Below, in pieces: positions 1-13,409 of a stretch of DNA of 64,000 nt. Numbering within the stretch: the first letter of the stretch is position 1; each line of letters begins with the position of its first letter. This stretch comes from Plantibacter flavus (GTDB lineage Bacteria > Actinomycetota > Actinomycetes > Actinomycetales > Microbacteriaceae). Below the pieces are notes generated by a model, which worked only from the letters and a program-made list of their open reading frames with translations, searched no databases and had not been told where the DNA came from. The translations under genes were made by a program, and so were the position numbers. The stretch covers positions 440,825-504,824 of the forward strand of contig NZ_FXAP01000001.1 in the NCBI RefSeq assembly GCF_900177615.1, in the 5' to 3' direction.

Positions 1-110
1 CTGCGCAGGGTGGAAGCGGGGAGCGGGTTCGTCTTGAACTCGTCGAAGTCGAGGTCGCTCCAGTTCACCGAGACACTCGTCTCGGTGAACTTGTCGATGT
101 CAAACGCCAT
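1..110 (-). CDS. Start of a ferritin-like protein (partial, runs off the left edge)
   Basis: Only about 36 N-terminal residues are visible, beginning MAFDIDKFTETSV from the ATG at 110. The first 11 nt overlap the end of the fatty acyl-CoA reductase gene, so the two are probably co-transcribed and translationally coupled. The visible segment with F-DEF-x3-PLPASTLR resembles the stretch around residues 53-66 of the ferritin-like protein at 2553-3455 (F-x2-TPLSAETVALLR), which precedes its first metal-ligand helix. I therefore infer a second member of the same ferritin-like family, so that the reductase is flanked by two such proteins. No metal ligand lies inside the window, so the assignment rests on weak similarity and position. 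Confidence 0.5.
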   Translation of the reverse strand, partial: MAFDIDKFTETSVSVNWSDLDFDEFKTNPLPASTLR

Positions 111-2556
111 GTGCGGTGGGGCGGTCGGGGATCGTGTCCTCGGCCGTCCGCTCTCCTCTCGGCTGTGCGGGGCGCGGTGCGCGGGTCAGTTCGTCTTCGG
201 AGCGGACGCCTCCGGTGGTTCGTGCCCATTCTCGCACCGTCCACCGGCCGGCCTGCGCCAGCTTGTACAGGGTGTGGTCGGGGTTGACGGCGACCGGGTT
301 GCCGACCAGCTGCAGCCAGGCGGCGTCCGCGTGGGAGTCGCCGTAGCCGTAGGAGTGCGCGAGGTCCATGCCGTGCTGCTCGGCGTACTGCGTGAGCCAG
401 GCGCCGCGCGCTTCGTCGACGAGCGGCGGGCTGTCGAGGTAGCCCGTGAGGCGTCCGTTCTCGGCGTGCATCGCCCCGGCCACGACCTCGTCGAAGAACG
501 GCTCGAGCGGAGCCGTCATGAGGTCGATGGTGCCGGTGACGAGGATCGTCCGGTGACCGGCTGCCCGGTGCGCGGCGATCTGCTCGAGCGCCTGGGGGAG
601 GAGGCGGGACCGGACGGCCTTGCCGAAGCCGCCCCGGACGATCTTCTCGAGCTGCGCCACGTCGACACCTTCGTAGCGACGCATGAACGTGCGGATGAAC
701 TCACCGCGGTCGCGGAGTTCAGCACCGATGTACCCCGGCATGGAGGCGCCGAGCGCGGCGATCTCGATGGGCCAGCGCGACCGCGAGGTCGCGGCGAGCC
801 GCAGCCAGAGGTACTGCTCGATGAGGTTCCAGGCGAGTACCGTGCCCTCGAGGTCGAACACCGCGAGGACGTCGTCGCGCACGGGCAAAATCTTCTGCTG
901 CTTCGCGGCGCCCGCCTTGCGGTTGGCGAAGGCGCGGGTCAGGGTCGTGACGGCGGGGAAGTGGATGCGCTGGAAGTAGTCGTCCCAGTCGATCGTCGTG
1001 ACGTCGAACCCGCGGTCCGCCTGCTGCTCGGGCGTCAGCGAGGCGTGCAGGGCACGGGTGCGCTGGTCGTCGAACACGATCTCGCTCTGCACGTAGGAGC
1101 GGTAGAGCCCGGTGAAGTCGCGGAGCGAGCCGAGGTCACTCGACGCCTTGCGGATCCGGTCCTGCCACCCGCGGGTGGTCGCGTTCGCCGGCAGGTGGGA
1201 GACGACCCGGCCGGCCGCCGTCGTCGCCTTCTGCCGCCGGTCGATGGAACGCTCGATCGCGCGCCCGCCGGGGAAGTTCCAGGTCGGCACGCTGATGTCG
1301 CCGGCGTCCGCCGGGATCGGGTGCTCCGTGAAGTAGCTGTGCACGTTCGCGTACATCTTGTGGAACGGCAGCGGGTTGCTCGCGCCGGAACTCACGTGGA
1401 AGTACCGCGCTGCAGCCGGCTCCGGCGGGGTCTGGGCCGCGGCGAGGATCGCGTTGACGACGAAGTCGACGGGGATGATGTCGAGCACGCTGTCGGGGAG
1501 GCCCGGGAAGTCGGGCAGCTGTCCGCGGCCGTAGGCGATGATCAGCGGGTCGGCGACCTTGTAGCCGTCGATCCAGCCGGGGAAGGGGTGCGCGAGCGCG
1601 CTCTCGATGATCGAGGGACGCACGACGGAGAGTCGGTTGCCCTCGCCGGCCCAGCGCTCCTCGGCCACCCGCTCGGCCATCGCCTTCGTGAAGGTGTAGA
1701 CGTCGGTCCAGCCGAGGCTCTCGGCGCGTGCGCGGCCGTGGGCGACGAGTCGAGCGTCGACCCAGGCGATGCGTGCGGCCTCGGCGGCGTTCGAGACGGC
1801 CTGTGGGCCGGCCTTGCCGTGCTCGCGACGGGCGGTCTGCATGAGCTTGCGCAAGACCTCCGGACGACGGGACGACTCCTCGGTGCGGACGCGCGCCGAG
1901 CGGGCTGCCTCGGCCTCGACGCGCCAGTCGGCGTCGTGCGCGAGGCTGCGTTCCGGCTGGATGCCCTTCCGCGTGCCGCCGACGTAGGCGGTGGAGACGT
2001 GGACGACGTGCGGGGTCGCGCCGCTCTTCGCGAGTGCCGCGTACAGGGTGGTCGCGCCGCCGACGTTCGTGGCGAAGGCCTCGTCGATCGGCGGGTCGAA
2101 GGAGACGGTCGATGCGCTGTGGATGACGACGTCGAGGTCGGCCGGCAGCGCCATCTCGTCGAGGCCACCCTCGATCACGCTGACGCGTTCGGCCACGATC
2201 TCCGCAGCGGCTTCGGCGCCGACGCGTTCGCGCCAGGCCTTGAACACCGGCTTGCGGAGCAGGGTCTGGAGGCGGTCGCTCCCGCGGACCGAGCCCTTCT
2301 TCCGGATGAGCAGGCTGACGCGGGTGGTCGGGTGATCGGCGAGCAGACGCTCGAGCACCGCCTGGCCGAGGAAGCCGGTGCCGCCGGTGACGAGCACGTG
2401 CGCGCCGTCGAGGGCGTCCGGGGCGACGGTGGGCTGCTCGGCAGTGGGCTCCTGCGCGTCCGGCTGCTGAGCCTCCGGCTCCTGCGCGTCCGGGTGCTGA
2501 GCCTCCGGCTCCTGCGCGTCGGGCTGCTCGGCGTCTGGTGTGGGGGTGTCGGTCAT
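100..2556 (-). CDS. Bifunctional fatty acyl-CoA reductase (SDR, male-sterility type) fused to a HAD-IB phosphatase
   Basis: This 818-residue protein has three parts. Residues 1-45 are a charged, Pro/Gln/Glu-rich tail containing three near-identical decapeptides. Residues 50-400 form an extended SDR domain of the NAD-binding-4 (male sterility) family, with the nucleotide motif TGGTGFLG (57-64) and the catalytic Y287-x3-K291. The C-terminal part (from about 563) is a HAD-IB phosphatase with DLEGT (568-572), a later VTGT motif and GDSHAD. Family members reduce long-chain acyl-CoA to the fatty alcohol using NADPH. Beside an AGPS homologue, the likely job is supplying the alcohol for alkyl ether formation; the phosphatase substrate is unknown. 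The start at 2556 was chosen for its GAGGAGAA ribosome-binding site and its ATGA overlap with the upstream gene. An upstream in-frame extension is antisense-like and was rejected. Confidence 0.85.
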   Translation of the reverse strand: MTDTPTPDAEQPDAQEPEAQHPDAQEPEAQQPDAQEPTAEQPTVAPDALDGAHVLVTGGTGFLGQAVLERLLADHPTTRVSLLIRKKGSVRGSDRLQTLLRKPVFKAWRERVGAEAAAEIVAERVSVIEGGLDEMALPADLDVVIHSASTVSFDPPIDEAFATNVGGATTLYAALAKSGATPHVVHVSTAYVGGTRKGIQPERSLAHDADWRVEAEAARSARVRTEESSRRPEVLRKLMQTARREHGKAGPQAVSNAAEAARIAWVDARLVAHGRARAESLGWTDVYTFTKAMAERVAEERWAGEGNRLSVVRPSIIESALAHPFPGWIDGYKVADPLIIAYGRGQLPDFPGLPDSVLDIIPVDFVVNAILAAAQTPPEPAAARYFHVSSGASNPLPFHKMYANVHSYFTEHPIPADAGDISVPTWNFPGGRAIERSIDRRQKATTAAGRVVSHLPANATTRGWQDRIRKASSDLGSLRDFTGLYRSYVQSEIVFDDQRTRALHASLTPEQQADRGFDVTTIDWDDYFQRIHFPAVTTLTRAFANRKAGAAKQQKILPVRDDVLAVFDLEGTVLAWNLIEQYLWLRLAATSRSRWPIEIAALGASMPGYIGAELRDRGEFIRTFMRRYEGVDVAQLEKIVRGGFGKAVRSRLLPQALEQIAAHRAAGHRTILVTGTIDLMTAPLEPFFDEVVAGAMHAENGRLTGYLDSPPLVDEARGAWLTQYAEQHGMDLAHSYGYGDSHADAAWLQLVGNPVAVNPDHTLYKLAQAGRWTVREWARTTGGVRSEDELTRAPRPAQPRGERTAEDTIPDRPTAHGV
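2437..2526 (-). repeat. Three 30-bp tandem repeats inside the acyl-CoA reductase gene
   Basis: Three consecutive 30-bp units encode the decapeptide (Q/H)PDAQEPEAQ at residues 11-40, the last copy being slightly diverged. The repeats give an acidic, disordered N-terminal tail before the Rossmann fold. Copy number of such in-frame units commonly varies between strains, but that cannot be judged from one sequence. Confidence 0.85.
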
Positions 2557-3455
2557 CGGTTCTCCTCGAGGCTGCCGCGGCGTCCGCGGCGGGCAAGTCT
2601 TGCGGCGAGATGGAGGCCCGACTGACCGGGCAGCGCGTCGATCGACGCGTCGATGCCGAGGACGGCGGGGTCGCTCCAGGTGGCGGTACTGCGGAACACG
2701 AGCGCGGCGAACCGTGCCGTCTGTCGGGGGCCGTTCACATCGGAGCCGGTGGGCCACACAGCGTTCCGGATGCGGCGACGGGTGATGCCCTGCGCACGGG
2801 GTGACGCGGCGAGGCGGTCGCTCGCTTGTGCGGTGAAGAACTCGAGGTGCCTGGCCTTCGTCTCGAGGATCTCGTCGACGAGTCGGTCGAGCACCGGGTG
2901 CGGCTCGCGTTCGCGCACCGCCCGGTAGGCGGCGTGGGTGATGAGGTCGTCGATCGTCCCGATCGTCATGTGCCACGCGATGATGTCCTCGCCGAGCACG
3001 TTCGCGATGAGGGCCTGGCCGATGGGCGCGAAGCGGTCGCGCACGCCGTGGACGGTGCGGCGGAGACCCGTCGAACGCGTCTTGTCGCGCGGAGTCCCGT
3101 TCGCTTTGAGCACGGTGTCGAGAGTGTCGGTGATCCAGTACTTCTCGTACGCCCAGGTGATGAGGAACGCGGTGACCCTGGCGTCCTTGTGGGTCGGGGT
3201 GACGAGCACGCCGCGGAGGTACTGCATGGTCGCGCGCTCGATGTCCGACAGGGCGCGGAGTAGCGCGACCGTCTCAGCACTCAGCGGCGTCTCAGCGAAG
3301 GCCTCCGCGTCGATCTCCTTGCGACGACTGCCGACGGCGGACTTCGCGTAGTCGCGGACGCTGAACCCGTGGGCAGGCCGCAGCATGGCGCTCTCCTGCT
3401 CCGCGTCCTCGAGGGCTGCGGGTGCTGTTCCGCGCGGCGAATCCCGGTTCACCAT
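2553..3455 (-). CDS. Ferritin-like (four-helix, possible diiron) protein of unknown function
   Basis: This is a 300-residue soluble, helix-rich protein with features of the ferritin-like superfamily. There is an acidic first helix (D71-I-E73), a second helix with E104 in YEKYW, a third helix with GEDIIAWHM (155-163), and a fourth with E198-TKARH-LE205, an E-x4-H arrangement like diiron ligands. The usual ExxH of helix 2 is not intact (EKYW), so metal binding is plausible but not certain. The gene is first in the leftward operon and its stop overlaps the reductase start (ATGA). The start at 3455 has GGAG 7 nt upstream; longer in-frame extensions would cover the divergent promoter. Position suggests a role in ether-lipid formation, perhaps oxygen-dependent, but this is inference only. 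Confidence 0.65.
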   Translation of the reverse strand: MVNRDSPRGTAPAALEDAEQESAMLRPAHGFSVRDYAKSAVGSRRKEIDAEAFAETPLSAETVALLRALSDIERATMQYLRGVLVTPTHKDARVTAFLITWAYEKYWITDTLDTVLKANGTPRDKTRSTGLRRTVHGVRDRFAPIGQALIANVLGEDIIAWHMTIGTIDDLITHAAYRAVREREPHPVLDRLVDEILETKARHLEFFTAQASDRLAASPRAQGITRRRIRNAVWPTGSDVNGPRQTARFAALVFRSTATWSDPAVLGIDASIDALPGQSGLHLAARLARRGRRGSLEENR

Positions 3456-3496
3456 GGCGTCTCCGTTCCGTGACGATCCGACCTCATCACTGTAGC

Positions 3497-3527
3497 TTGC
3501 AACGATACGCAACGCGTAGCGTATTCT
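3497..3527 (+). promoter_or_regulatory. Divergent promoter with a 20-bp palindromic operator (3505-3524)
   Basis: ATACGCAACGCGTAGCGTAT at 3505-3524 is palindromic at 18 of 20 positions. It lies between a TTGCAA -35-like box (3497-3502) and a TATTCT -10-like box (3522-3527), which is 7 nt before the SDR start codon; the rightward mRNA is probably leaderless. The 19-nt box spacing is long. The half-site TACGCAAC/GTAGCGTA closely matches the arms of the palindrome in front of tetR (8425-8449), suggesting control by that repressor. Confidence 0.6.
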
Positions 3528-3534
3528 GATCCCC

Positions 3535-4332
3535 ATGGCTACAGCTCTCGTCACCGGTGGAACGTCCGGCATCGGTGCCGCGTTCGCCACGGCGCTCGCC
3601 GGACGGGGCTTCGACCTGGTGCTCGTTGCCCGTGATGTCGAGCGGCTCGAACAGTCGGCCGAGCGGCTGCGCGCGACCGGTCGCACCGTCGACGTGATCA
3701 GCGCCGACCTCTCGGACCGCGCCGACGTCGCGAGACTCGCCGCACGGATCGAGGATCAGGCGTCGCCGATCGAGGTCGTCGTGAACAACGCAGGTTTCGG
3801 TGTGCACGCCCGCCTCACCGATCCCGACACGAGCGAACTCGACAATGCGATCGAAGTCATGTGCCGGAGCGTCACCACGCTCTCGGGCGCCGCGGCCCGC
3901 GCCATGCGGCAACGCGGACGCGGCACCATCATCAACGTCTCGAGCACGGCGGGGTACATCACCACCGGCGGTTACTCGGCGGTGAAGGCGTTCGTCACCA
4001 CCTACACCGAGGCGCTCGCGGTCGAGCTCGCCGGCTCGGGTGTCCGCGTCACAGCCCTGTGCCCCGGGTGGGTCCGCACCGAGTTCCACGATCGCGCCGG
4101 CATCAGCACCCGCTCGATCCCGTCAGGTCTGTGGATCGACGTGGACCGGCTCGTCGCCGACGCCCTCCGCGACGCCGGGAGAGGGGTCGTCGTCTCCATC
4201 CCGAGCTTCCGCTTCAAGGCCCTCATGGCCCTCGTCAAGTTCGCGCCCCGTGCGTCCATCCGGTGGATCTCCGGCCGGATGTCCTCGAGCCGTCGAGCCG
4301 CCAACGCCGCCCAGTCAGGAGCCCACCGATGA
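3535..4332 (+). CDS. Short-chain dehydrogenase/reductase, candidate acyl/alkyl-DHAP reductase
   Basis: This is a 265-residue classical SDR with the cofactor motif TGGTSGIG (7-14), NNAG (84-87), catalytic S137 and Y147-x3-K151, plus a basic C-terminus. Such enzymes reduce ketones with NAD(P)H. It is the first gene of the rightward operon and overlaps plsC by ATGA. Because the two following genes encode an acyltransferase and an AGPS homologue, a sensible substrate is the keto group of acyl- or alkyl-dihydroxyacetone phosphate, giving the glycerol-3-phosphate form. The SDR family is too broad for sequence alone to prove this. There is no clear Shine-Dalgarno; a -10 box 7 nt upstream implies a leaderless transcript. 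Confidence 0.85.
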   Translation: MATALVTGGTSGIGAAFATALAGRGFDLVLVARDVERLEQSAERLRATGRTVDVISADLSDRADVARLAARIEDQASPIEVVVNNAGFGVHARLTDPDTSELDNAIEVMCRSVTTLSGAAARAMRQRGRGTIINVSSTAGYITTGGYSAVKAFVTTYTEALAVELAGSGVRVTALCPGWVRTEFHDRAGISTRSIPSGLWIDVDRLVADALRDAGRGVVVSIPSFRFKALMALVKFAPRASIRWISGRMSSSRRAANAAQSGAHR

Positions 4333-5033
4333 CCGCAGAGCCGCGGTTCACCTCCTCCCTCCACGCCAACGCGCGGTTCGTCGCCCAGCGTCTGCTGCTG
4401 AAGCCGCTCGTCTGGTCGCTGACCCGCGTGACGGTGACGGGTCGCGAGCGCTTGTCGGGCGTGACCGGTCCGTACATCGTCGTCGCCAACCACCAGTCGC
4501 ACCTCGACGCACCGCTCGTCGTCGGGGCGATGCCACGTCGTCTCTCGCGCTACCTCGCCGCCGGTGTCGCGGCCGACTACTTCTTCGACGTGCCCGCCCG
4601 CCGCATCTTCGCCGCGCTCTTCTTCAACGCGTTCCCGGTCGACCGCTCGGGTGACCGCAAGCGCGCAGGCGTGTCCCGTGAGCTGCTCGAGAGCGGCGTC
4701 CCGATCCTCATCTTCCCCGAGGGCGGCCGATCGCGGACGGGTGAGCTCGGCCGGTTCAAGCCCGGTGCCGCGGCACTCGCCACCCGCCAGGGCATCCCCT
4801 GCCTCCCGGTGGCCGTCCTCGGCACCCACTCCGCCATGCCGAAGGGTCGCAACTGGCCCGTCCCCGGACGACCGCCGGTGCGCGTCGTCTTCGGGCAACC
4901 GATCCACCCGCAGCCGAACGAGACGCCCGTCCAGCTCATGGACCGCGTCGTCGCCGAGATCGTCGCGCTGCGCGCCTCGGTCGAACCGGGAGCACACGTT
5001 TCGATCGACACACCACGAAAGGAAGCCGGATGA
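4329..5033 (+). CDS. PlsC-type 1-acyl-glycerol-3-phosphate/DHAP acyltransferase
   Basis: This 234-residue acyltransferase carries both PlsC hallmarks: NHQSHLD (54-60, the NHx4D catalytic motif) and FPEGGRS (129-135, phosphate binding). A basic N-terminus and short hydrophobic stretches suggest peripheral attachment to the membrane. Family enzymes transfer acyl groups from acyl-CoA or acyl-ACP to glycerol phosphate backbones. In this operon it could acylate DHAP to give the substrate of the AGPS-like enzyme, or acylate position 2 of the alkyl product. It overlaps both neighbours by ATGA (4329-4332 and 5030-5033), so translation of the three genes is coupled. The start at 4329 is fixed by that overlap; a much longer upstream reading frame is only a shadow of the SDR gene. 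Confidence 0.88.
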   Translation: MTAEPRFTSSLHANARFVAQRLLLKPLVWSLTRVTVTGRERLSGVTGPYIVVANHQSHLDAPLVVGAMPRRLSRYLAAGVAADYFFDVPARRIFAALFFNAFPVDRSGDRKRAGVSRELLESGVPILIFPEGGRSRTGELGRFKPGAAALATRQGIPCLPVAVLGTHSAMPKGRNWPVPGRPPVRVVFGQPIHPQPNETPVQLMDRVVAEIVALRASVEPGAHVSIDTPRKEAG

Positions 5034-6694
5034 CGTCTGTGGAGCACATGAAGTGGTGGGGCTGGGGAGTCGAAGGGGTCGCCTTCGAGCACAGCAACAA
5101 GCCGGACTTCGCGCCGTTCGTGAAGCAGGCCGTGGGGCTCGACCTCCGGAAGCCGGCGCAGGCACACCTCAGCTTCGACGAGCTCACCGTCCCCGCATCG
5201 CGCGCGTCCGAGGAGTTCATCGCCGAGCTGTCGACGCTCGTCGGTCAGGGTCACGTGACCACGGACGACCAGGAACGCGTCGTCCACACCTACGGCAAGA
5301 GCATCCGCGACCTGCTCCGGATCCGCGCGAACGACCTGCCCCGCACGCCCGACCTCGTCGTCTACCCGGCTGACGAAGCCGAGGTCGCGTCGGTCGTGGC
5401 TGCAGCCGTCGCCGCAGACGCCGTGATCATCCCGTTCGGCGGCGGCACCAACATCGCCGGCTCGCTCGACCCGCAGCCGACGGAGGAGCGGGTCATCATC
5501 TCGCTCGACCTCGGCCGGCTCGACCGCGTCCTGTCGATCGACGAGGGCTCCGGTCTCGCCACCATCCAGGCCGGTGCGCAGGGCCCCTCGATCGAGGCGC
5601 AGCTGGGCGCCAAGGGCTGGACCATGGGCCACTTCCCCGACAGCTTCACGCACTCCACGCTCGGCGGGTGGGTCGCGACCCGCTCCTCGGGCATGCAGTC
5701 CGACAAGTACGGCGACATCGCCGACATCACCAAGGGCCTGCGGATGGTGCGCCCGAACGGCATCGTGGCGATCCGCCCCGTCCCGAGCGCGTCGACCGGG
5801 CCGAGCGTCCGCGAGATGATCATCGGCAGCGAGGGTCGACTCGGCATCATCACCGAGGTCACCGTGCAGGTGCACCGGACGCCCGCCGTCCGCGAGGTCC
5901 TCGGGTACTTCTTCCCTACCTGGGAGGCCGGGCTCGCGGCGATGCACGAGATCGCGGAGAGCGACGCCAGCCCCTCGGTCACCCGGGTGTCGAACGCCCG
6001 GGAGAGCGGCTTCTCGCTCGCGACCCGCAAGGCCAGCACCGGCGTCTCGGCGCAGGTCACCAAGGGCCTCATGAAGGTGCTCACGGCCAGGGGCTGGGAC
6101 CTCGAGCAGCTGTGCCTCTCCTTCATCGGCTACGAGGGCAGCGCGTCCCACGTGCGGTACGAGAAGGGCCTCGTCGGCTCGATCGTCCGGAAGCACGGCG
6201 GCATCGGCGTCGGCAAGGGCCCCGGTGCCCTCTACGACCAGAAGAAGTTCGACACCCCGTACCTGCGCGACTTCCTCCTCGACCGCGGAGCCGCCGCCGA
6301 CGTCTCGGAGACCGCAGCGCCCTGGTCGCGCCTGCAGGAGGTCTACGACGCCGCGAACGACGCCGCCAACGCCGCGTACGACAAGCTCGGGGTGCACGGG
6401 TGGATCATGTGCCACCTCTCGCACTCGTACCACTCCGGCGCGTGCCTGTACTTCACCTTCGCGTTCATCACCGGCGACGACCCGATCGGCGAGTACGAGC
6501 AGGTCAAGTCGGCGATCCAGCAGTCGTTCGTCGACCACGGTGGCACCCTCTCGCACCACCACGCGGTCGGCGTCGAGCACTCGCCGTGGATGGAGCAGGA
6601 CATCTCGACCGAGGGCGTCGCGATCATGCGCGGCCTCTTCGACAGCGCTGACCCCGGCTCGAACTTCAACCCCGGCAAGATCCTCGCGGACTGA
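5030..6694 (+). CDS. FAD-dependent alkyl-dihydroxyacetonephosphate synthase (AGPS) homologue
   Basis: This 554-residue VAO-family flavoprotein resembles eukaryotic AGPS along its length. The N-terminus has the KWWGWG motif (8-13); eukaryotic enzymes have KWNGWG. The FAD-binding loop is PFGGGTNIAGS (135-145). The C-terminal cap contains R413 in YLRD, Y467 in SYHSGACLYF and the triple histidine at 509-511 in SHHHAVG. In characterised AGPS enzymes the equivalent Tyr, Arg and HHH residues are required for exchanging the acyl group of acyl-DHAP for a fatty alcohol, forming the ether bond. Unlike animal AGPS there is no peroxisomal targeting extension. It is the last gene of the SDR-plsC-AGPS operon, overlapping plsC by ATGA. 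Glycolate-oxidase-like FAD proteins share the fold but lack the HHH signature. Confidence 0.9.
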   Translation: MTSVEHMKWWGWGVEGVAFEHSNKPDFAPFVKQAVGLDLRKPAQAHLSFDELTVPASRASEEFIAELSTLVGQGHVTTDDQERVVHTYGKSIRDLLRIRANDLPRTPDLVVYPADEAEVASVVAAAVAADAVIIPFGGGTNIAGSLDPQPTEERVIISLDLGRLDRVLSIDEGSGLATIQAGAQGPSIEAQLGAKGWTMGHFPDSFTHSTLGGWVATRSSGMQSDKYGDIADITKGLRMVRPNGIVAIRPVPSASTGPSVREMIIGSEGRLGIITEVTVQVHRTPAVREVLGYFFPTWEAGLAAMHEIAESDASPSVTRVSNARESGFSLATRKASTGVSAQVTKGLMKVLTARGWDLEQLCLSFIGYEGSASHVRYEKGLVGSIVRKHGGIGVGKGPGALYDQKKFDTPYLRDFLLDRGAAADVSETAAPWSRLQEVYDAANDAANAAYDKLGVHGWIMCHLSHSYHSGACLYFTFAFITGDDPIGEYEQVKSAIQQSFVDHGGTLSHHHAVGVEHSPWMEQDISTEGVAIMRGLFDSADPGSNFNPGKILAD

Positions 6695-6697
6695 ACC

Positions 6698-6792
6698 CGG
6701 TCGCTGAGTGGTCCTCCGGTCCCTGAGCGGTTTCCGGTCCCATGAGCGGATCCTCCGGTCCCTGAGCCTGTCGAAGGGCGGCTCAGGGCCGG
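6698..6792. repeat. GGTCCCTGAG repeat cluster with a terminator hairpin
   Basis: Between the convergent AGPS and lipid kinase genes are four degenerate copies of CGGTCCCTGAGC. The last forms a hairpin, CCCTGAGC (6760-6767) with GCTCAGGG (6781-6788) around CTGTCGAAGGG. It probably ends both operons, and its right arm covers the kinase stop codon. The same element recurs at 14083-14211. Confidence 0.75.
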
Positions 6793-7814
6793 AGCCGACC
6801 CGATCGCGCCGCCGTCGCCGGAAGTCGCACGATGAGCGCGCCGGGGTCGACGGTCAGCCGGGCTGCGGAGACCGGGCCGATCCCGTCGCCGTCCGCCTGG
6901 AACTCGGCGGGCGGTGAGACCGTCACGTCGATGCGTCGTATCCGCAGGTAGCGGAGCGCCCCTCCGGCGGACCCGGCCGTCTCGACGGCGCTCGGCTGCA
7001 CGCGTCCGCCCCGTGTCCGTCCGCCCTTGGAGAACCGGGCGACGGGGTTGTTCGCGCGGTGCAGCCAGCGCGTGACGCGGACCCCGTCCCACCCTTCAAG
7101 GGACCGCACCATGAGGACGTCGAGCACGCCGTCGTCGAGGAGTGCGTCGGGGAGGACGTCGAGGCCCGCCGAGACCGTGCCGCAGTTCCCGACGAACATC
7201 GTGTGTGTCCGTCCGCTCCGGATCGGTCCGCCGTCCTCCTTCCAGGAGACGCGGGGCCGGTCGCGGCGGAAGAGCCCGCGGATGATCGGGACGACGTAGG
7301 CGATCCAGCCGAAGCGGCGCTTGAGGACCGGGTCGGCGTAGGCCACCATGTCCGCGTCGACGCCGAAGCCCGACATGACGAGGAACGGGGTGCTGCGCTG
7401 GAGGCCGTCGGGGTTCCGGTAGTCGATGACCCCGACGTCGACGCTCCGCTCCTCCCCGGTGAACGCGGCCCGCACCGCGGTGGCCGTGTCGATCGGGATC
7501 CCGGCGTTCCGGGCGAAGAGGTTCGCGGTGCCGACGGGGACGACGGCGAACGGCGTCCGGGTGTGACGCATCGCCCCGGCCACCTCGCGGACCGTCCCGT
7601 CACCGCCGGCTGCGATCACGAGCGACGCGCCGCCTCCGAGCGCCTCCGCGACCTGGTCGACCGCGGTCGACCGCTCGCGGGTCGGGATCCAGCTCGTCGG
7701 GCCCCAGCCGGCCTCGGCGGCCGCGGCGTCGACGAGCCTCGTCACGCGCTCGAGCTGGATGCGCGTCGGGTTGTAGATCACCGCAGCGTGCGGCGGGGTG
7801 CTGCCTCGCGTCAT
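6783..7814 (-). CDS. Diacylglycerol/lipid kinase family protein
   Basis: This 343-residue protein belongs to the DAGK catalytic-domain (YegS/BmrU) family. The N-terminal domain has the nucleotide-binding signature GGDGTVREV (70-78) after the VIYNP start typical of these kinases, and the C-terminal beta-rich domain extends to the end. Family members phosphorylate diacylglycerol or related lipids with ATP. The gene overlaps the tetR stop by ATGA, so regulator and kinase are made from one mRNA. It is convergent with the AGPS-like gene. An obvious inferred role is phosphorylating a neutral alkyl-acyl-glycerol to feed it back into phospholipid synthesis, but substrates in this family cannot be read from sequence. 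Confidence 0.85.
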   Translation of the reverse strand: MTRGSTPPHAAVIYNPTRIQLERVTRLVDAAAAEAGWGPTSWIPTRERSTAVDQVAEALGGGASLVIAAGGDGTVREVAGAMRHTRTPFAVVPVGTANLFARNAGIPIDTATAVRAAFTGEERSVDVGVIDYRNPDGLQRSTPFLVMSGFGVDADMVAYADPVLKRRFGWIAYVVPIIRGLFRRDRPRVSWKEDGGPIRSGRTHTMFVGNCGTVSAGLDVLPDALLDDGVLDVLMVRSLEGWDGVRVTRWLHRANNPVARFSKGGRTRGGRVQPSAVETAGSAGGALRYLRIRRIDVTVSPPAEFQADGDGIGPVSAARLTVDPGALIVRLPATAARSGRLRP

Positions 7815-8377
7815 GCGGCCAGTGCCGGCCAGAGGACGGACAGTACCTGGTCCGCCCAGTCGTCGTCCATGTCGGCGCCGCGGACGAGCTGTCCGAGGAC
7901 CGCGCCGAGGAGCAGGGTCGCGACGAGGCGGCCGTCGAGTCCGGGCTTCAGATCGCCGGTGGAGATCCGTTCGTCGACCAGGTTGGACAGTGCGCGCGCG
8001 CGGTTCCTCGTGAGGTCGCGGAGCAGCGTCGAGAACTCGGGGTCGTCCTGGAGCAGGATCGACGCGATCGTGCCCCGGCCCACCACGTCCTCGATCATCG
8101 CGCGGGCTTCATGGAGCAGCCAGGTGAAGGTGTCGTAGGTCGAGAGGTTCTCGGGGATCTCGATCGGGGTCTCCATGGCGCGGGCGACGGCTGCCGTGAG
8201 CAGCTCGGAGCGGTTGCGGTACCGCCGGTAGATCGTCGTCTTCGCCACGCCGGTGGTCTCGGCGACCGCTTCGATGTTGACGGCGACCGAGCCGCGCGAG
8301 CGCATGAGGTCGAGGGCTGCGTCGAGGATACGGTCGCTCATCTGCTGAGCGCGGGAGACGCGTCGGGAGACGGGCAC
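7811..8377 (-). CDS. TetR-family repressor, likely regulator of the ether-lipid genes
   Basis: This 188-residue protein has an N-terminal TetR helix-turn-helix (about residues 11-55; VAETTGVAKTTIYRRYRNR is the recognition region) followed by a helical ligand/dimer domain. The GTG at 8377 was chosen because a strong GGAGGAGG ribosome-binding site lies 7 nt upstream. Longer starts (ATG 8425, TTG 8449) would run into the 25-bp palindrome at 8425-8449. It is the first gene of a two-gene operon with the lipid kinase. Autoregulation through the upstream palindrome is likely, and a related palindrome lies at the divergent promoter near 3515. The ligand is unknown; a fatty acyl or fatty alcohol derivative would fit. 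Confidence 0.85.
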   Translation of the reverse strand: MPVSRRVSRAQQMSDRILDAALDLMRSRGSVAVNIEAVAETTGVAKTTIYRRYRNRSELLTAAVARAMETPIEIPENLSTYDTFTWLLHEARAMIEDVVGRGTIASILLQDDPEFSTLLRDLTRNRARALSNLVDERISTGDLKPGLDGRLVATLLLGAVLGQLVRGADMDDDWADQVLSVLWPALAA

Positions 8378-8424
8378 CGACCAACCTCCTCCGCGCGACG
8401 CCGGAGTCCGGTCGGATCGGTCCA

Positions 8425-8449
8425 TTGCGCTACGCCCACCGTAGCGCAA
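8425..8449 (-). promoter_or_regulatory. Palindromic operator in front of tetR
   Basis: TTGCGCTAC, 7 nt, GTAGCGCAA forms a perfect 9-bp inverted repeat 48 bp upstream of the tetR GTG. On the minus strand a TACGGT -10-like box is embedded in it. The arms match the half-site of the palindrome at 3505-3524 (TRCGCWAC), though the spacer differs (7 versus 2 nt). Confidence 0.6.
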
Positions 8450-8493: not shown

Positions 8494-9369
8494 TCAGTCC
8501 CAGCGGGGGTCGTCGGGGTCGGGGGAGTCCTCGCCGTCGGCGTCGGTCATGATCGTCGCCCCGTCGATCCAGTCCGTGAGCGCGTCACCGTGCAGCTGCA
8601 CGGGCGCGGGGGCGCCGAAGAGCTGCGGGTGCGTGACGGCCGCGAGCGGTGCGTCGCTCGCGAAGACGACGACGTTGCCGAGCGGCCCCTCGTCGTCGAC
8701 CGGATCGAAGTCGAGGACGACGGCGACATGCGTGAACACCGTTCGGAGGGTCGCCGCCTGGCGTCTGGAGTAGTCGAAGGGGCTGCCGTCGAGGAGGTTG
8801 ACCGCGATCACGCCGTCGTCCGCGGACCGCGCCGCCACGCGGCGGTAGAACTCGAGGCTCGCGACCCGCCGGTGGATCACCGCGGCGTCCCAGAGATCGA
8901 CGACGGTCACCTTCGCGTCCTGCCACGCCGTGACGTCCCCGTCGGTGGTGGCGGCTTCGTCGATCGGGCCGTCCGCGACGGCCCTGGCATCACCGAAGCG
9001 GACCTCGACCCGGTGGCCGTCCGGGAGCGGCAACGCCTCCAGCATGCCGGCGTACAGCTCCGGCTCGAACTCCACGACGAGCTGCGGCGATCCCGGACGC
9101 GTCGCCTGGACGTAGCGGGGGAGCGTCAGCGCGCCGGCACCGAGGTGGACGGCGAAGAGCTCCTCGCCCGCCGGCGCCTCGGCGTCGATCACGCGGGCGA
9201 TGTGCCGGATGTACGGGTACTCGAGCGAGCGGGGGTCCGCGAGCGAGACCACCGACTGCGGGATGTCGTCGACGCTGAGCTCGTAGCGCAGCGTCCGCTT
9301 GTCGAGGAGGGTGATCCGGGCGTCGCGACGGCCGAACGGGAGCCGGCGGGAACGGGAGAACAGAGGCAC
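8494..9369 (-). CDS. Spermidine synthase-like SAM-fold methyltransferase superfamily protein
   Basis: This 291-residue protein has the Rossmann core of the spermine/spermidine synthase superfamily: a glycine-rich loop HLGAGALTLPRYV (about 94-106), an acidic residue after the second strand (VVEFEPELY) and a GDAR segment. The polyamine aminopropyl-transfer gatekeeper signature is not obvious, so true spermidine synthase activity is uncertain; many actinobacterial members have unknown roles. The GTG start at 9369 has a TAGGCT -10 box exactly 6 nt upstream (9376-9381 on the complement) and no Shine-Dalgarno, so the message is probably leaderless. It is transcribed away from the ABC-F gene. Confidence 0.75.
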   Translation of the reverse strand: MPLFSRSRRLPFGRRDARITLLDKRTLRYELSVDDIPQSVVSLADPRSLEYPYIRHIARVIDAEAPAGEELFAVHLGAGALTLPRYVQATRPGSPQLVVEFEPELYAGMLEALPLPDGHRVEVRFGDARAVADGPIDEAATTDGDVTAWQDAKVTVVDLWDAAVIHRRVASLEFYRRVAARSADDGVIAVNLLDGSPFDYSRRQAATLRTVFTHVAVVLDFDPVDDEGPLGNVVVFASDAPLAAVTHPQLFGAPAPVQLHGDALTDWIDGATIMTDADGEDSPDPDDPRWD

Positions 9370-9430: not shown

Positions 9431-11230
9431 ATGGCACACCTTCTCGGCGCTGAAGCGCTCCACCTCGAGTACCCGACCAAGGTCGTCTTCGACGGCATCA
9501 CGATCGGGGTGAACGAGGGCGACCGCATCGGCATCGTCGGACGCAACGGCGACGGCAAGTCCACGCTCCTCGGCCTCCTCGCCGGCCGCAAGGAGCCCGA
9601 CTCCGGCCGCGTGACGGTGCGCAACGGTGTCACGGTCGGCGTGCTCGACCAGTCCGACACCCTCGACCACGACAAGACTGTCGGCCAGACCATCGTCGGT
9701 GGCTTCGACGAGCACGAGTGGGCGGGCGACCCGAAGGTCCGCGACGTCATCTCCGGCCTCGCCTCCGACATCGCCTGGGACGCCCTCGTCGCCGACCTCA
9801 GCGGTGGTCAGCGCCGCCGGGTCGCGCTCGCCGCCCTGCTCGTGGGCGACCACGACATCCTCTTCCTCGACGAGCCGACGAACCACCTCGACGTCGAGGG
9901 CATCACCTGGCTCGCGCAGCACCTCAACCGGCGATGGTCGAAGAACTCCGGCGGCCTGCTCGTCGTGACCCACGACCGGTGGTTCCTCGACGCCATCTGC
10001 ACGGCCACGTGGGAGGTGCACGACCGCATCGTCGAACCCTTCGAGGGTGGGTACGCGGCGTACGTCCTGCAGCGTGTGGAGCGCGACCGCTCCGCCGCGG
10101 TCTCCGAGGCCAAACGCCAGAACCTCATGAAGAAGGAGCTCGCCTGGCTGCGCCGTGGCGCTCCCGCCCGGACAGCCAAGCCGAAGTTCCGCATCGAGGC
10201 CGCCAACGCGCTCATCGCCGACGAGCCGCCCGTGCGCAACACGGTCGAGCTGGCCGGCATGGCGACCGCCCGCCTGGGCAAGGACGTCGTCGACATCCTC
10301 GACGTCACCGTGTCCTACGGCGACCGGACGGTCATCAAGGACGTCGAGTGGCGCATCGCCCCGGGCGAGCGCACCGGCATCCTCGGCGTGAACGGCGCCG
10401 GCAAGTCCACCCTCCTCGGGCTCGTCACGGGCGAGGTCGAAGCGACCGAGGGGCGCGTCAAGCGCGGCAAGACCGTGCAGGTCGCGACACTCACGCAGCA
10501 GCTCGACGAGCTCGCCGAGTACGAGCAGGACCGCGTGAGCGACGTCATCGGGCGCAAGCGTACGAGCTACGTGGCCGGGGGCAAGGAGATGACGCCAGGG
10601 CAGCTGCTCGAACGCCTCGGCTTCACGAGTGCGCAGCTCTCCACCCCGGTGAAGGACCTCTCGGGTGGTCAGCGCCGCCGCCTGCAGCTCCTGCTCATCC
10701 TGCTCGACGAGCCGAACGTCCTCGTGCTCGACGAACCGACCAACGACCTCGACACCGACATGCTCGCCGCCATGGAGGACCTCCTCGACTCGTGGCCGGG
10801 CACCCTGCTCGTCGTCTCGCACGACCGGTACTTCCTCGAGCGGGTGACCGACCAGCAGTACGCGATCATGGACGGCCACTTCCGGCACCTTCCCGGTGGC
10901 ATCGACCAGTACCTGGAGCTCAACGCCGGGACGGCCGGCAGCCGCTCCCAGGAGCACGACCGCCCGACGGCCGCAGGCGGTGGCCCGACCAAGAAGACGC
11001 CGAAGCTGAGCGGTGCGGAGCTCCGGAACGCGCAGCAGGAGATCAAGGCGATCGACCGCAAGCTCCACAAGCTCAACGGTCAGATCGAGCAGGCGCACGA
11101 GAAGGTCGCGGTCCACGACCAGAGCGACTTCGCCGGGATCACCGCGCTCGGCGCCAAGATCCAGGCCATGTACGGCGAGATCGCCGACCTCGAGGTCCGC
11201 TGGCTGGAGCTCTCCGAGCTCGTCGAATAG
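9431..11230 (+). CDS. ABC-F family ATP-binding protein (Uup-like)
   Basis: This 599-residue soluble protein has two ABC ATPase domains and no membrane segment. Walker A sequences are GRNGDGKST (37-45) and GVNGAGKST in the second half, each followed by an LSGGQRRR signature and a Walker B LDEPTN. The inter-domain linker and a C-terminal lysine/glutamate-rich coiled coil (about 520-599) are typical of Uup-type ABC-F proteins, which act on ribosomes or replication intermediates rather than in transport. Start ATG 9431; a TATCGT box lies 9 nt upstream. It is monocistronic. Antibiotic-resistance ABC-F proteins share the architecture, but nothing points to that here. Confidence 0.92.
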   Translation: MAHLLGAEALHLEYPTKVVFDGITIGVNEGDRIGIVGRNGDGKSTLLGLLAGRKEPDSGRVTVRNGVTVGVLDQSDTLDHDKTVGQTIVGGFDEHEWAGDPKVRDVISGLASDIAWDALVADLSGGQRRRVALAALLVGDHDILFLDEPTNHLDVEGITWLAQHLNRRWSKNSGGLLVVTHDRWFLDAICTATWEVHDRIVEPFEGGYAAYVLQRVERDRSAAVSEAKRQNLMKKELAWLRRGAPARTAKPKFRIEAANALIADEPPVRNTVELAGMATARLGKDVVDILDVTVSYGDRTVIKDVEWRIAPGERTGILGVNGAGKSTLLGLVTGEVEATEGRVKRGKTVQVATLTQQLDELAEYEQDRVSDVIGRKRTSYVAGGKEMTPGQLLERLGFTSAQLSTPVKDLSGGQRRRLQLLLILLDEPNVLVLDEPTNDLDTDMLAAMEDLLDSWPGTLLVVSHDRYFLERVTDQQYAIMDGHFRHLPGGIDQYLELNAGTAGSRSQEHDRPTAAGGGPTKKTPKLSGAELRNAQQEIKAIDRKLHKLNGQIEQAHEKVAVHDQSDFAGITALGAKIQAMYGEIADLEVRWLELSELVE

Positions 11231-11367: not shown

Positions 11368-12276
11368 ATGACCTTCTCGAAGAAGCTTCTGGCCGGACTG
11401 GCCATCATCCCCGCCATCGCGCTCCTCGCCGGATGCGCCGGCGGCTCAGGCGCAGGCGCCGCCGCTGAAGACAAGGGCACCGAGGCGAACCCCGTCAAGA
11501 TCGGCGTCGTCGGCGCCAGCGACCCCTATTGGGAGACGTACAAGGACGCCGCCGAGAAGGAGGGCATCTTCGTCGACATCGTCGACTTCGGCGAGTACAC
11601 GCAGCCGAACCCGGCGCTCACCGAGGGCGAGATCGACCTCAACCAGTTCCAGCACATCGTCTACCTCGCGCAGTACAACGAGGCCTCCGGTGAGGACCTC
11701 ACGCCGATCGGCTCGACGGCGATCTACCCCCTCGGCCTCTACTCGACCAAGGTCGACAGCGTCAAGGACATCAAGAAGGGCGACACGATCGCCATTCCGA
11801 ACGACGAGAGCAACCAGGCTCGTGCGCTCCTCGTCCTGCAGTCCGCAGGCCTGCTGGAGCTGAAGGACGGCGGCAACATCTTCTCGACGCCGGACGACAT
11901 CATCGCCGACAAGTCGAAGGTCACCGTCACCTCGCTCGAGGCTTCGCTGACGCCGACCTCGCTGCCTGACGTCACCGGCGCGATCATCAACAACGACTTC
12001 ATCAACGACTCCGGTCTCAAGGCGTCCGACGCGATCGCCGAGGACGACCCGTCCGACCCGAACGCGCTGCCGTACGTCAACATCTTCGCTGCGAAGGCCG
12101 CCGACGCCGACAACGAGACGTACGCGAAGCTCGTGAAGATCTACCAGGACACGAAGTCCGTCGTCGACGGCGTCGTGGAGAACTCCGGCGGAACCGCGGT
12201 TCCGCTGAAGACCCCGGTCAAGGACCTCGTGAAGTCGCTCGAGACCGTCCAGAAGGACATCAAGGCCAAGGGCTGA
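11368..12276 (+). CDS. metQ: Methionine ABC transporter substrate-binding lipoprotein (MetQ/NlpA)
   Basis: This 302-residue lipoprotein has a signal peptide with lipobox LAGC (Cys about residue 23), then the NlpA/MetQ fold with KIGVVGASDPYWE at the start of the mature domain. It binds D/L-methionine outside the membrane and delivers it to MetNI. It is the first gene of metQ-metN-metI. AGAGGA lies about 9 nt before the ATG. The 137-bp region upstream shows no recognisable SAM riboswitch. A strong hairpin follows 12 bp after the stop, which would let metQ be expressed above the downstream genes. Confidence 0.92.
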   Translation: MTFSKKLLAGLAIIPAIALLAGCAGGSGAGAAAEDKGTEANPVKIGVVGASDPYWETYKDAAEKEGIFVDIVDFGEYTQPNPALTEGEIDLNQFQHIVYLAQYNEASGEDLTPIGSTAIYPLGLYSTKVDSVKDIKKGDTIAIPNDESNQARALLVLQSAGLLELKDGGNIFSTPDDIIADKSKVTVTSLEASLTPTSLPDVTGAIINNDFINDSGLKASDAIAEDDPSDPNALPYVNIFAAKAADADNETYAKLVKIYQDTKSVVDGVVENSGGTAVPLKTPVKDLVKSLETVQKDIKAKG

Positions 12277-12288
12277 TCCGACGTTCAG

Positions 12289-12331
12289 AGCGTTCCTGTG
12301 GGAGGCTGTCATCCGCTCCCACAGGAACGCT
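12289..12331 (+). terminator. Strong hairpin between metQ and metN (partial terminator)
   Basis: A perfect 16-bp inverted repeat, AGCGTTCCTGTGGGAG (12289-12304) and its complement (12316-12331), encloses an 11-nt loop and is followed by TCGTCGTTT. It sits inside the operon, so it probably reduces read-through and protects the metQ mRNA 3' end. Confidence 0.85.
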
Positions 12332-12379
12332 TCGTCGTTTCACCGCCTCCTGATCACCCGACACACCGAGGACACCCCC

Positions 12380-13408
12380 ATGCCACTCGTCAGCCTCCGA
12401 GACGTCGCGAAGCGGTACCCGTCTCCGCAGAAGGGCGCCGCGCCGATCGCCGCGATCGACGGCGTCGACCTCGACATCGAGGCCGGTGACGTCTTCGGGA
12501 TCATCGGCTACTCGGGAGCCGGCAAGTCGACCCTCGTGCGCCTCATCAACGCGCTCGAGCCCGCGACGTCGGGAAGCATCGTCGTCGACGGCACCGAGGT
12601 GACGACGCTCTCGGAGCGCGGTCTCCGCGACCTCCGCCTCGGCATCGGGATGATCTTCCAGCAGTTCAACCTCTTCAACTCCAAGTCGGTGCGGAAGAAC
12701 ATCGCCTACCCGCTCGAGGTCGCCGGACTTCACCGCGCGGAGATCCGCACCCGGGTCGACGAGCTGCTAACGTTCGTCGGGCTGTCCGACAAGGCCGACA
12801 ACTACCCCGACCAGCTCTCCGGCGGCCAGAAGCAGCGCGTCGGCATCGCTCGCGCGCTCGCGACCTCGCCCCGGATCCTGCTCGCGGACGAGGCGACGAG
12901 CGCCCTCGACCCCGAGACCACGCAGGAGGTCCTCGCGCTGCTCAAGCAGGTGAACCGCGACCTCGGCGTGACCATCGTCGTCATCACCCATGAGATGGAG
13001 GTGATCCAGTCGCTCGCGACGAAGCTCGCCGTCATGGAGCGCGGCAAGGTCATCGAGCAGGGCGACGTCTTCGAGGTGTTCTCCGACCCGCAGCACGCCG
13101 CGTCCAAGCGATTCGTGTCGACGGTCATCAAGGGCGTCCCGTCGCCGGCCGAGCTGGCGGTGCTCAAGGAACGACACGTCGGGCGCATCGTCACCCTGTC
13201 CTTCCGCGACGGCGACGCCTCGCAGGCGGGCGTCTTCCTCACGCTCGCGCAGGCGGGCGTCGACTTCGAGCTCGTCTACGGCGGGATCAACGACATCCAG
13301 GGTCGTGCGTTCGGCCACCTGACGCTCGCCCTCCGCGGCGACGATCAGACGATCGACGGAGCGCTGACCGCCATCGGATCCCAGGCCACCGTGACGGAGG
13401 TGCGCTGA
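12380..13408 (+). CDS. metN: Methionine ABC transporter ATP-binding protein
   Basis: This 342-residue ATPase has Walker A GYSGAGKST (43-51), the signature LSGGQKQR (about 148) and Walker B LLADEATSALD. After about residue 265 it has the NIL/ACT-like regulatory domain found in MetN, which binds intracellular methionine and shuts down transport (trans-inhibition). It pairs with MetI, whose start codon lies 1 nt after the metN stop. No strong Shine-Dalgarno is visible before the ATG. Gene order metQ-metN-metI supports the substrate assignment over other amino-acid importers. Confidence 0.93.
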   Translation: MPLVSLRDVAKRYPSPQKGAAPIAAIDGVDLDIEAGDVFGIIGYSGAGKSTLVRLINALEPATSGSIVVDGTEVTTLSERGLRDLRLGIGMIFQQFNLFNSKSVRKNIAYPLEVAGLHRAEIRTRVDELLTFVGLSDKADNYPDQLSGGQKQRVGIARALATSPRILLADEATSALDPETTQEVLALLKQVNRDLGVTIVVITHEMEVIQSLATKLAVMERGKVIEQGDVFEVFSDPQHAASKRFVSTVIKGVPSPAELAVLKERHVGRIVTLSFRDGDASQAGVFLTLAQAGVDFELVYGGINDIQGRAFGHLTLALRGDDQTIDGALTAIGSQATVTEVR

Positions 13409-13409
13409 C

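Follow-up and report, generated by a model that had tools for sequence, protein, structure and literature searches.

A likely ether-lipid gene cluster of aerobic actinobacteria with a ferritin-like protein pair as candidate vinyl-ether desaturase

A gene cluster at positions 1-8449 of a Plantibacter flavus stretch (contig NZ_FXAP01000001.1, positions 440,825 to 504,824; the full 64,000 nt are called the window) is likely to encode the synthesis of ether lipids, judging from the families of its predicted proteins. Its conserved unit has two divergent arms, FLB–FAR/HAD–FLA on the left (minus strand) and SDR–PlsC–AGPS on the right (plus strand), where FLA and FLB are paralogous ferritin-like proteins. 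With moderate confidence, the locus as a whole is read as an aerobic ether-lipid and plasmalogen cluster in which FLB, together with FLA, is a candidate vinyl-ether desaturase. A more specific and tentative proposal is that FLA and FLB form a heteromeric soluble diiron delta-1'-desaturase, which would be a third independently evolved route to the vinyl ether besides CarF/PEDS1 and the anaerobic one. Equally tentatively, this enzyme would have spread with the AGPS operon among aerobic actinobacteria and would account for the dimethyl acetals of Subtercola, possibly also for those of Kineococcus and Frigoribacterium. The enzymatic steps, the binding of the regulator and above all the FLA/FLB reaction are predictions.

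Dimethyl acetals and the proposed vinyl-ether step

The initial annotation of this DNA proposed that the cluster makes alkyl ethers and mentioned dimethyl acetals from Subtercola. The acetals are documented by a table in PMC5945732, which gives i16:0 (17.0%), a15:0 (3.2%) and a17:0 (1.9%) dimethyl acetals for S. vilae DB165 and i15:0 (1.5%), i16:0 (6.9%), a15:0 (9.7%) and a17:0 (2.6%) for S. lobariae, about 20% in total for both species; Frondihabitans is reported there without acetals and Agreia with little. The whole cluster is present in the genome of the same S. vilae strain, DB165, and in a genome of S. lobariae (loci L143 and L150). The S. lobariae genome is that of CGMCC 1.12976 and the acetal column is that of DSM 103962. 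In the S. vilae genome paper (PMC6518244), acetal, DMA, plasmalogen and ether are nowhere mentioned. An aerobic Kineococcus contains an anteiso-15:0 dimethyl acetal that the standard system reads as 14:0 2-OH, and its authors regarded the acetals as surprising at first sight (PMC7472656). In Frigoribacterium, the anteiso-15:0 aldehyde or dimethyl acetal is reported for two species, D8 and F. faeni, and not for two others (PMC12823222).

A dimethyl acetal is a sign of a 1-alkenyl (vinyl) ether or an aldehyde and not of a plain alkyl ether. Therefore, a vinyl-forming step is needed beyond the gene set of the initial annotation; the assignment to an AGPS-type ether-lipid cluster stands, but alkyl ethers as the product do not account for the acetals, and no vinyl step had been named. 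The CarF/PEDS1 family (PF10520, Lipid_desat) has no match in the FLB of the window (P0009), in the own genome (0/1), in 219 genomes of the same family (0/219) or in the five genomes of a second set (0/5), with neither Subtercola matching. Since no control matched within these searches, the negatives alone prove little; the positive control comes from searches of the phylum, where matches in 7/198 and 15/364 genomes show that the search works. CarF/PEDS1 as an enzyme encoded elsewhere in the genome was set aside on the PF10520 result. The marker of the anaerobic route, PF06050 (HGD-D), the only domain of that route that was searched for, was not found in any of four genomes (0/4; own, S. vilae, S. 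lobariae and L072), and the control matched E. coli and M. jannaschii. The anaerobic plasmalogen genes are presumably those named PlsA/PlsR, with the HGD-D domain in PlsA/R. Since no known vinyl-ether enzyme was found in Subtercola and FLA/FLB belong to an oxygen-dependent enzyme type within the same regulon, the pair is the natural candidate for this step.

The idea that AGPS-positive actinobacteria use either FLB or CarF was also tried, and no clean swap was seen in the 364 phylum genomes. Fourteen of the 15 PF10520 carriers in this sample belong to one family and have no AGPS orthologue, and the fifteenth (G347) has an AGPS-like protein at 39% identity. Most AGPS-like genes at 34-40% identity in the sample occur with neither FLB nor PF10520. 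The PF10520 carriers are G244, G348, G413 and others (loci L152-L154 and L201-L213).

Organization of the cluster and proposed pathway

The features of the locus are as follows.

1-110 (5' end only; whole gene at L031:9316-10110), minus strand: FLB (P0009, 264 aa), ferritin-like diiron protein and, by prediction, the catalytic component of an enzyme resembling desaturases
100-2556, minus strand: FAR/HAD (P0001), predicted fatty acyl-CoA reductase (GGTGFLG, YxxxK) fused to a HAD-IB phosphatase-like domain (DLEGT)
2553-3455, minus strand: FLA (P0002 from its ATG), FLB paralogue that has lost ligands E77, H80 and E171, predicted non-catalytic partner
3505-3524, no strand: near-palindrome ATACGCAACGCGTAGCGTAT (20 bp) within the divergent promoter, probably the operator for the TetR regulator at 7811-8377
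3535-4332, plus strand: SDR (adh_short), proposed alkyl/acyl-dihydroxyacetone phosphate (DHAP) reductase, the substrate being a prediction
4329-5033, plus strand: PlsC-family acyltransferase (HX4D), proposed to acylate DHAP or the sn-2 position of alkyl-glycerol-3-phosphate, the substrate again being a prediction
5030-6694, plus strand: AGPS-type FAD enzyme (putative alkyl-DHAP synthase; FAD_binding_4 and FAD-oxidase_C), AGPS structures closest
6783-7814, minus strand: YegS/Rv2252-type lipid kinase (DAGK_cat), facultative neighbour
7811-8377, minus strand: TetR regulator (TetR_N); where a locus has an orthologue of it, the divergent promoter carries the operator half-site
8426-8448, no strand: inverted repeat TGCGCTACG-CCCAC-CGTAGCGCA upstream of tetR, sharing a half-site with 3505-3524

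The six open reading frames of the initial annotation (FAR, SDR, PlsC, AGPS-like, kinase and TetR) were all found where it had placed them. The 4-nt overlaps that it described are real as well (SDR/PlsC 4329-4332, PlsC/AGPS 5030-5033, kinase/TetR 7811-7814), and there is an additional one in which the FLA stop overlaps the FAR start (2553-2556). Its core of FAR, SDR, PlsC and AGPS is retained; FLA was missed and most of FLB lies outside the window, the lipid kinase falls outside the conserved core, and TetR is present in part of the loci. The left operon extends out of the window with FLB as the next gene, which overlaps the end of FAR by 11 nt. Plantibacter is an aerobic genus, and three of its named genomes (L072-L074) encode an FLB that is 100% and an AGPS that is 99-100% identical to the window proteins.

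In the proposed pathway, FAR would reduce a branched acyl-CoA to the fatty alcohol and the PlsC enzyme, or another acyltransferase, would acylate DHAP. AGPS would then exchange the acyl for an alkyl group, and the SDR would reduce alkyl-DHAP to alkyl-glycerol-3-phosphate, which would feed into the usual phospholipid synthesis. Adjustment of phosphorylated intermediates may fall to the HAD domain and the adjacent kinase. FLB, probably with the ligand-poor FLA, would act as an oxygen-dependent diiron desaturase that forms the 1'-vinyl-ether bond, in place of the unrelated CarF/PEDS1, which is a membrane-type desaturase. The TetR repressor would bind the palindrome of the divergent promoter and control both arms jointly.

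Identity of the AGPS-type enzyme

The protein encoded at 5030-6694 is closest to AGPS among the FAD oxidases and is likely to exchange acyl for alkyl groups, as predicted from its relatives of known structure. Its best PDB relatives are the AGPS of Dictyostelium (E 7e-116) and of guinea pig (E 2.6e-87), after which the values drop to glycolate oxidase (E 6.9e-22) and D-lactate dehydrogenase (E 7.6e-22). This result bears out the description of the protein as a eukaryote-like AGPS, and identity as a hydroxy-acid oxidase was ruled out on the same difference in E value. The KWWGWG motif, R413, Y467 and HHH 509-511 are all at the positions that had been noted. The choice of Y467 as the key tyrosine did not hold, since it varies among the cluster homologues (28/32); R413, Y474 (in GACLYF) and H509-511 occur in 32/32. 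In the alignment, Y474 falls on the position at which guinea-pig chain 4bca deviates, this chain presumably being a mutant of the catalytic tyrosine. The catalytic tyrosine is therefore probably Y474 and not Y467, if the roles of the arginine, tyrosine and HHH loop in AGPS are, as assumed here, catalytic.

Features of FLB and FLA

Within Pfam, P0009 has matches at E<=1 only to Rubrerythrin and to FA_desaturase_2 (PF03405, the soluble acyl-ACP (acyl carrier protein) desaturase family), both below threshold. Across the FLB members, 35/37 have a PF03405 match at E<=0.01 (best 2.9e-5) and 32/37 a Rubrerythrin match. An FLB profile search of the PDB found M. tuberculosis DesA2 at E 0.0037; the top row was a designed helix bundle and rests on short repeats. 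The diiron ligands E45, E77xxH80, E141 and E171xxH174 (E/ExxH/E/ExxH) are present in 38/38 sampled FLBs, 37 of which are in the ligand alignment, and in 80/80 named loci. The AlphaFold2 model of FLB is helical (pLDDT 86.5, pTM 0.86) and places the ligand residues on four long helices. The 50 Foldseek matches listed for it, led by soluble acyl-ACP desaturases, otherwise comprise R2-like oxidases, some R2 chains of ribonucleotide reductase and a single azoxy synthase.

FLA has no Pfam or NCBIfam match and no significant relative of solved structure (best E 0.16). It is a full-length paralogue of FLB (hhalign probability 100, E 2e-52, 32% identity), and its model (pLDDT 88.5) has fold matches similar to those of FLB. 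In 35 FLA rows, which left out L036, L041 and L042 and kept the weak rows L038-L040 apart, E77 is replaced by K or R, H80 by I, L, M or V, and E171 by K (29 rows), R, Q or N. The other ligands are mostly kept, E45 in 35 rows, E/D141 in 32 and H174 in 32. Because FLA is without three ligands and the FLB set is complete, the two may form a heteromer with one working diiron subunit. A PHROGs search gave no match.

A wider FLB-like family (L215-L226; 37-48% identity) is found in other groups of the phylum. Its members have no FLA match in the fetched stretches, and no common neighbourhood was seen. The diiron ligands of the distant FLB homologues are intact in the parts covered.

Conservation and co-occurrence

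Two overlapping sets of loci were compared (L143 and L065, on contigs of equal length, are the same region). The sampled set comprises 219 genomes of the same family, probably Microbacteriaceae to judge by the named relatives, including the own genome, and the named set comprises the best 80 of 218 relatives from a scan of named genomes. In the sampled set, P0002 (FLA; the query also finds FLB) has matches in 69 genomes and AGPS has matches of at least 390 bits in 60, with G135 counted on two pieces. The split between AGPS orthologues and other proteins is clear because the next match is at 352 bits and 37% identity. Both AGPS and FLA/FLB occur in 59 genomes, AGPS only in 1, FLA/FLB only in 10 and neither in 149 (Fisher p 1.2e-41, a value uncorrected for kinship). 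Among the genera that vary, eight (g9, g17, g34, g38, g52, g68, g76 and g82) have both or neither in every sampled member, and four break this rule (g22 through G101, g33 through the contig-end case G107, g57 and g79). Of the genomes with FLA/FLB only, G045, G116 and G171 have one weak match each and G107 is cut by the contig end inside PlsC.

All six genes of the conserved unit are separately placed within the fetched stretch at 60/80 named loci. This set is above chance because the same six genes recur across these loci, whose hosts include Microbacteriaceae, Streptomyces, Phytoactinopolyspora, Kocuria marina, Ruania and others. The count includes L120 and L096, where FAR and/or AGPS match in pieces; the AGPS matches are split in both of these Homoserinibacter gongjuensis / Arenivirga flava records, and FAR also in L120, so that the genes are broken or misassembled. 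In the sampled genomes the six genes are linked in 32/41 fetched stretches, own included, of which 32 had been chosen since both genes matched and 9 since AGPS was lacking nearby.

Six of the 20 named loci without the full set lie on short contigs or contig ends (L078, L086, L088, L118, L138 and L149). A whole-genome search for AGPS in 10 of the 20 found an orthologue elsewhere in seven (63-71% identity), namely three Jiangella, two Microlunatus, one Naasia and the genome of L151, which has a complete cluster at another place. In two of the remaining genomes AGPS is divergent (32-37%), and in Agromyces terreus none was found. FAR-SDR-PlsC-AGPS form one cluster in the two Jiangella genomes examined, with FLB at a separate place. 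At L135 and L146, the stretch that contains FLB also has a divergent AGPS (32-34%).

In the FLB tree (114 rows), the cluster-type FLBs form one clade of 105 rows with a long stem (support 100/99) and nine distant homologues stand apart. The label for AGPS linkage was given by default in this tree, and no AGPS was seen on the short contigs of L078, L118, L138 and L149. Orphan FLA/FLB pairs of Agromyces-like genomes nest among AGPS-linked rows in a 17-row clade (100/99). Because of this position, AGPS and FAR were probably lost in these genomes. Streptomyces rows are interspersed with Microbacteriaceae rows, which points to transfer. A 2.35-Mb linear plasmid of Streptomyces sp. NBC_01450 (L240, NZ_CP109481.1) carries FLB and AGPS at a distance of about 6 kb, in a region that is unannotated in the record. 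L098, filed as Acidobacteria bacterium isolate G2_35, has a cluster of the Microbacteriaceae type and groups with Microbacteriaceae in the tree; the bin is probably misnamed.

Divergent promoter and TetR

The divergent promoter is about 80 bp long. Its near-palindrome at 3505-3524 is symmetric at 9/10 positions, which 0/200 shuffles of that stretch reach, and the repeat in the tetR promoter shares its half-site. The window contains four copies of the pattern CGTAGCGYA, where 0.43 would be expected, and one of the four (9282-9290) lies elsewhere; a looser palindrome pattern is no rarer than chance. Among the sampled loci, 27 of 32 have a measurable divergent promoter, and CGTAGCG is present in 8/8 with a TetR orthologue and in 0/19 others, three of which have a different TetR; the density of the motif predicts 0.45 loci. 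Among 59 measurable named loci it is present in 27/27 with the orthologue and in 3/32 without, namely L137 and two loci with contigs that start close to AGPS (L088 and L090). The p values of this association, 4.5e-7 (sampled) and 9e-14 (named), overstate the case because the loci are related and the sets overlap. The motif is also in TetR's own promoter in 3/8 loci. One TetR thus appears to control both arms of the divergent cluster, as predicted from the shared motif, and a single regulator would tie FLA/FLB to AGPS.

Other genes of the cluster and its surroundings

The FAR part of 100-2556 has a NAD_binding_4 match (E 5.2e-49), the YxxxK motif and a FAR C-terminal (Sterile) domain at 32.8 bits, below the 35.4 cutoff, and is followed by the HAD domain; it has the features of the FAR class with the C-terminal region under its cutoff. 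It aligns with the fatty acyl-CoA reductase 7eoz of the PDB (residues 48-537, E 1.4e-47). Y287 and K291 of YxxxK as well as D568 and E570 are kept in 32/32 cluster homologues. The usual HAD motif is DxDGT; motif I of this protein (window 841-858, residues 567-572 of P0001) reads DxEGT in 32/32 homologues. The catalytic S137, Y147 and K151 of the SDR are present in 32/32 homologues, and H55 and D60 of PlsC in 30/31, the remaining one being gapped.

The lipid kinase is beside the cluster at a minority of the six-gene loci, 7/32 in the sampled genomes and 11/59 in the named ones, and was ruled out as a core member. M. tuberculosis Rv2250c-Rv2251-Rv2252, presumably a parallel trio of TetR, AGPS-like protein and kinase, was set aside as unconfirmed. 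Loci of the Subtercola/Labedella type (L049, L052, L065, L068, L110, L143 and L150) have a second PlsC-like match inserted between FAR and FLB, and FLB is followed there by a match to a lipid kinase.

Beyond the cluster, a spermidine-synthase-like protein adjoins at 8494-9369 (NF037959, 48.9 bits, cutoff 40) with no connection seen. Judged by eye, 9431-11230 encodes an ABC-F-like ATPase and 11368-14069 a methionine-type ABC transporter set, with a lipoprotein (11368-12276), an ATPase (12380-13408) and a permease (13410-14069).

Alternative explanations

Several observations weigh against a vinyl-ether desaturase made of FLA and FLB. G101, the sole genome with AGPS only, has FAR-SDR-PlsC-AGPS without FLA/FLB in the fetched 20 kb and no P0002 match genome-wide, and G567 of the phylum sample has an AGPS at 59% identity and no FLB match. 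Conversely, G025, G102, G212, G057, G079 and G142 have adjacent FLA-FLB and lack both an AGPS orthologue and a FAR match of full length, the only AGPS-like protein of G142 being at 36%, and Agromyces terreus keeps FLA/FLB in the same situation. If AGPS and FAR were lost in the Agromyces-like genomes, the pair has been kept there with no route to its supposed substrate. FLB is without a detected FLA in the fetched stretch, the level at which it was searched, at five Jiangella loci, in Actinopolymorpha (a 4.7-kb contig) and at L151, so FLA does not invariably lie beside it. Distant relatives of FLB from elsewhere in the phylum keep the ligands intact and have no ether-lipid neighbours. As to the protein itself, the PF03405 match of P0009 (18.5 bits) is below the gathering score of 22.7, and the Foldseek similarity is remote, with all E values above 0.001 (best 1.2e-3) and query TM scores of 0.45-0.63. 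Known soluble desaturases act on acyl-ACP and not on membrane phospholipids. Dimethyl acetals may also arise from free aldehydes, and the half-site CGTAGCG was picked by eye after the promoters had been viewed. Given the orphan pairs, the FLBs without FLA, G101, G567 and the distant homologues, the substrate of FLB may be another or a broader one. The neighbours of orphan FLA/FLB and distant FLB have no common theme in the stretches examined (10 neighbour proteins scanned).

One alternative, rather unlikely, is a cluster that makes saturated alkyl-ether lipids only. FLA/FLB would then desaturate or oxidise the acyl or alkyl chain elsewhere, as the resemblance of FLB to acyl-ACP desaturases, enzymes acting on fatty chains, might suggest, or would dispose of fatty aldehyde like the cyanobacterial aldehyde-deformylating oxygenase, and the Subtercola acetals would come from another enzyme or from aldehydes. 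The pair in Agromyces-like genomes without AGPS and FAR and the FLB homologues without ether-lipid context speak for it. However, it leaves the strong co-occurrence with AGPS and the shared operator to be explained, and the two Subtercola gave no match to either the CarF/PEDS1 family or the HGD-D marker. Pfam holds a model of the aldehyde-deformylating oxygenase, yet P0009 matched only Rubrerythrin and FA_desaturase_2 there. It is improbable that the cluster makes ether lipids whose vinyl bond is formed by an unlinked membrane desaturase outside PF10520, with FLA/FLB in an auxiliary role (redox or substrate delivery). PEDS1/CarF is indeed a desaturase of another type (PMC9131029), and the present survey of membrane desaturases was limited to PF10520; against this stands the complete diiron ligand set of FLB at every named locus. 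Most improbable is an AGPS-like hydroxy-acid oxidase in a cluster for wax esters, hydrocarbons or a polyketide-type lipid. The two enzyme kinds share a superfamily (PF01565/PF02913) and the best NCBIfam match of the protein is GlcD, below threshold, but the distance in E value between the two AGPS structures and the next enzyme kind, the Arg, Tyr and HHH residues in all 32 homologues, and the presence of FAR, PlsC and SDR in the same operons argue for AGPS.

Significance and comparison with known systems

Almost all aerobic bacteria are regarded as lacking plasmalogens, and true CarF homologues beyond myxobacteria are described only in Leptospira (PMC9131029). Yet dimethyl acetals occur in Subtercola and in a Kineococcus, which are described as aerobes (PMC5945732, PMC7472656). 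The cluster offers a complete set of candidate genes in species that are in culture and whose fatty-acid profiles have been published, which makes the origin of plasmalogen-type acetals in aerobic actinobacteria directly testable. If FLA/FLB makes the vinyl ether, the human PEDS1 would have an evolutionary replacement in a probably soluble protein that should be more tractable. Earlier identifications of 14:0 2-OH in actinobacteria may have to be reconsidered, as is proposed for Kineococcus in PMC7472656.

The animal peroxisomal route uses FAR1, GNPAT, AGPS and acylglycerone-phosphate reductase, followed by PEDS1 (PMC9131029). The same early activities are predicted for the cluster and the AGPS motifs are kept; in contrast, its FAR is fused to HAD, a PEDS1-family protein was not found and the ferritin-like pair is present instead. 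The cluster genes are also arranged in two divergent operons, at many loci with one TetR. M. xanthus has MXAN_1676-1674, which encode AGPS, FAR-GNPAT and an epimerase, and an elb operon with CarF; AGPS plays a minor part there and CarF is required for the vinyl ether (PMC9131029). Likenesses to Myxococcus are the proposed aerobic bacterial plasmalogen route, an AGPS homologue with FAR- and acyltransferase-type domains, a HAD protein (ElbB) and the predicted iso-branched plasmalogens. In the present cluster, however, FAR is fused to HAD and not to an acyltransferase, the CarF family was not found, FLA/FLB is present, and there is no multidomain protein of the ElbD type (FAR-ACS-ACP-acyltransferase), as P0001-P0008, to which this search was confined, have no AMP-binding or ACP domain.

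The anaerobic route converts the ester of diacyl lipids without DHAP (PMC9702350). It would share with the cluster the class of end product, plasmalogens, if FLA/FLB forms the vinyl ether, and it differs in PF06050, which was not found in the four genomes searched. Soluble acyl-ACP desaturases (PF03405) and R2-like ligand-binding oxidases resemble FLB in the predicted helical fold and the E/ExxH/E/ExxH pattern, but P0009 is below the Pfam cutoff and FLB is accompanied by a ligand-poor paralogue in an ether-lipid operon. Among the open-access titles and abstract openings listed, with subscription journals mostly outside them, none connects ferritin-like proteins with plasmalogens or sets out the present cluster of actinobacteria. 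AGPS as such is already known from an aerobic bacterium (Myxococcus, PMC9131029), and AGPS homologues in actinobacterial metagenome bins have already been published (PMC11868695); therefore, the new element is the FLA/FLB pair together with its regulon.

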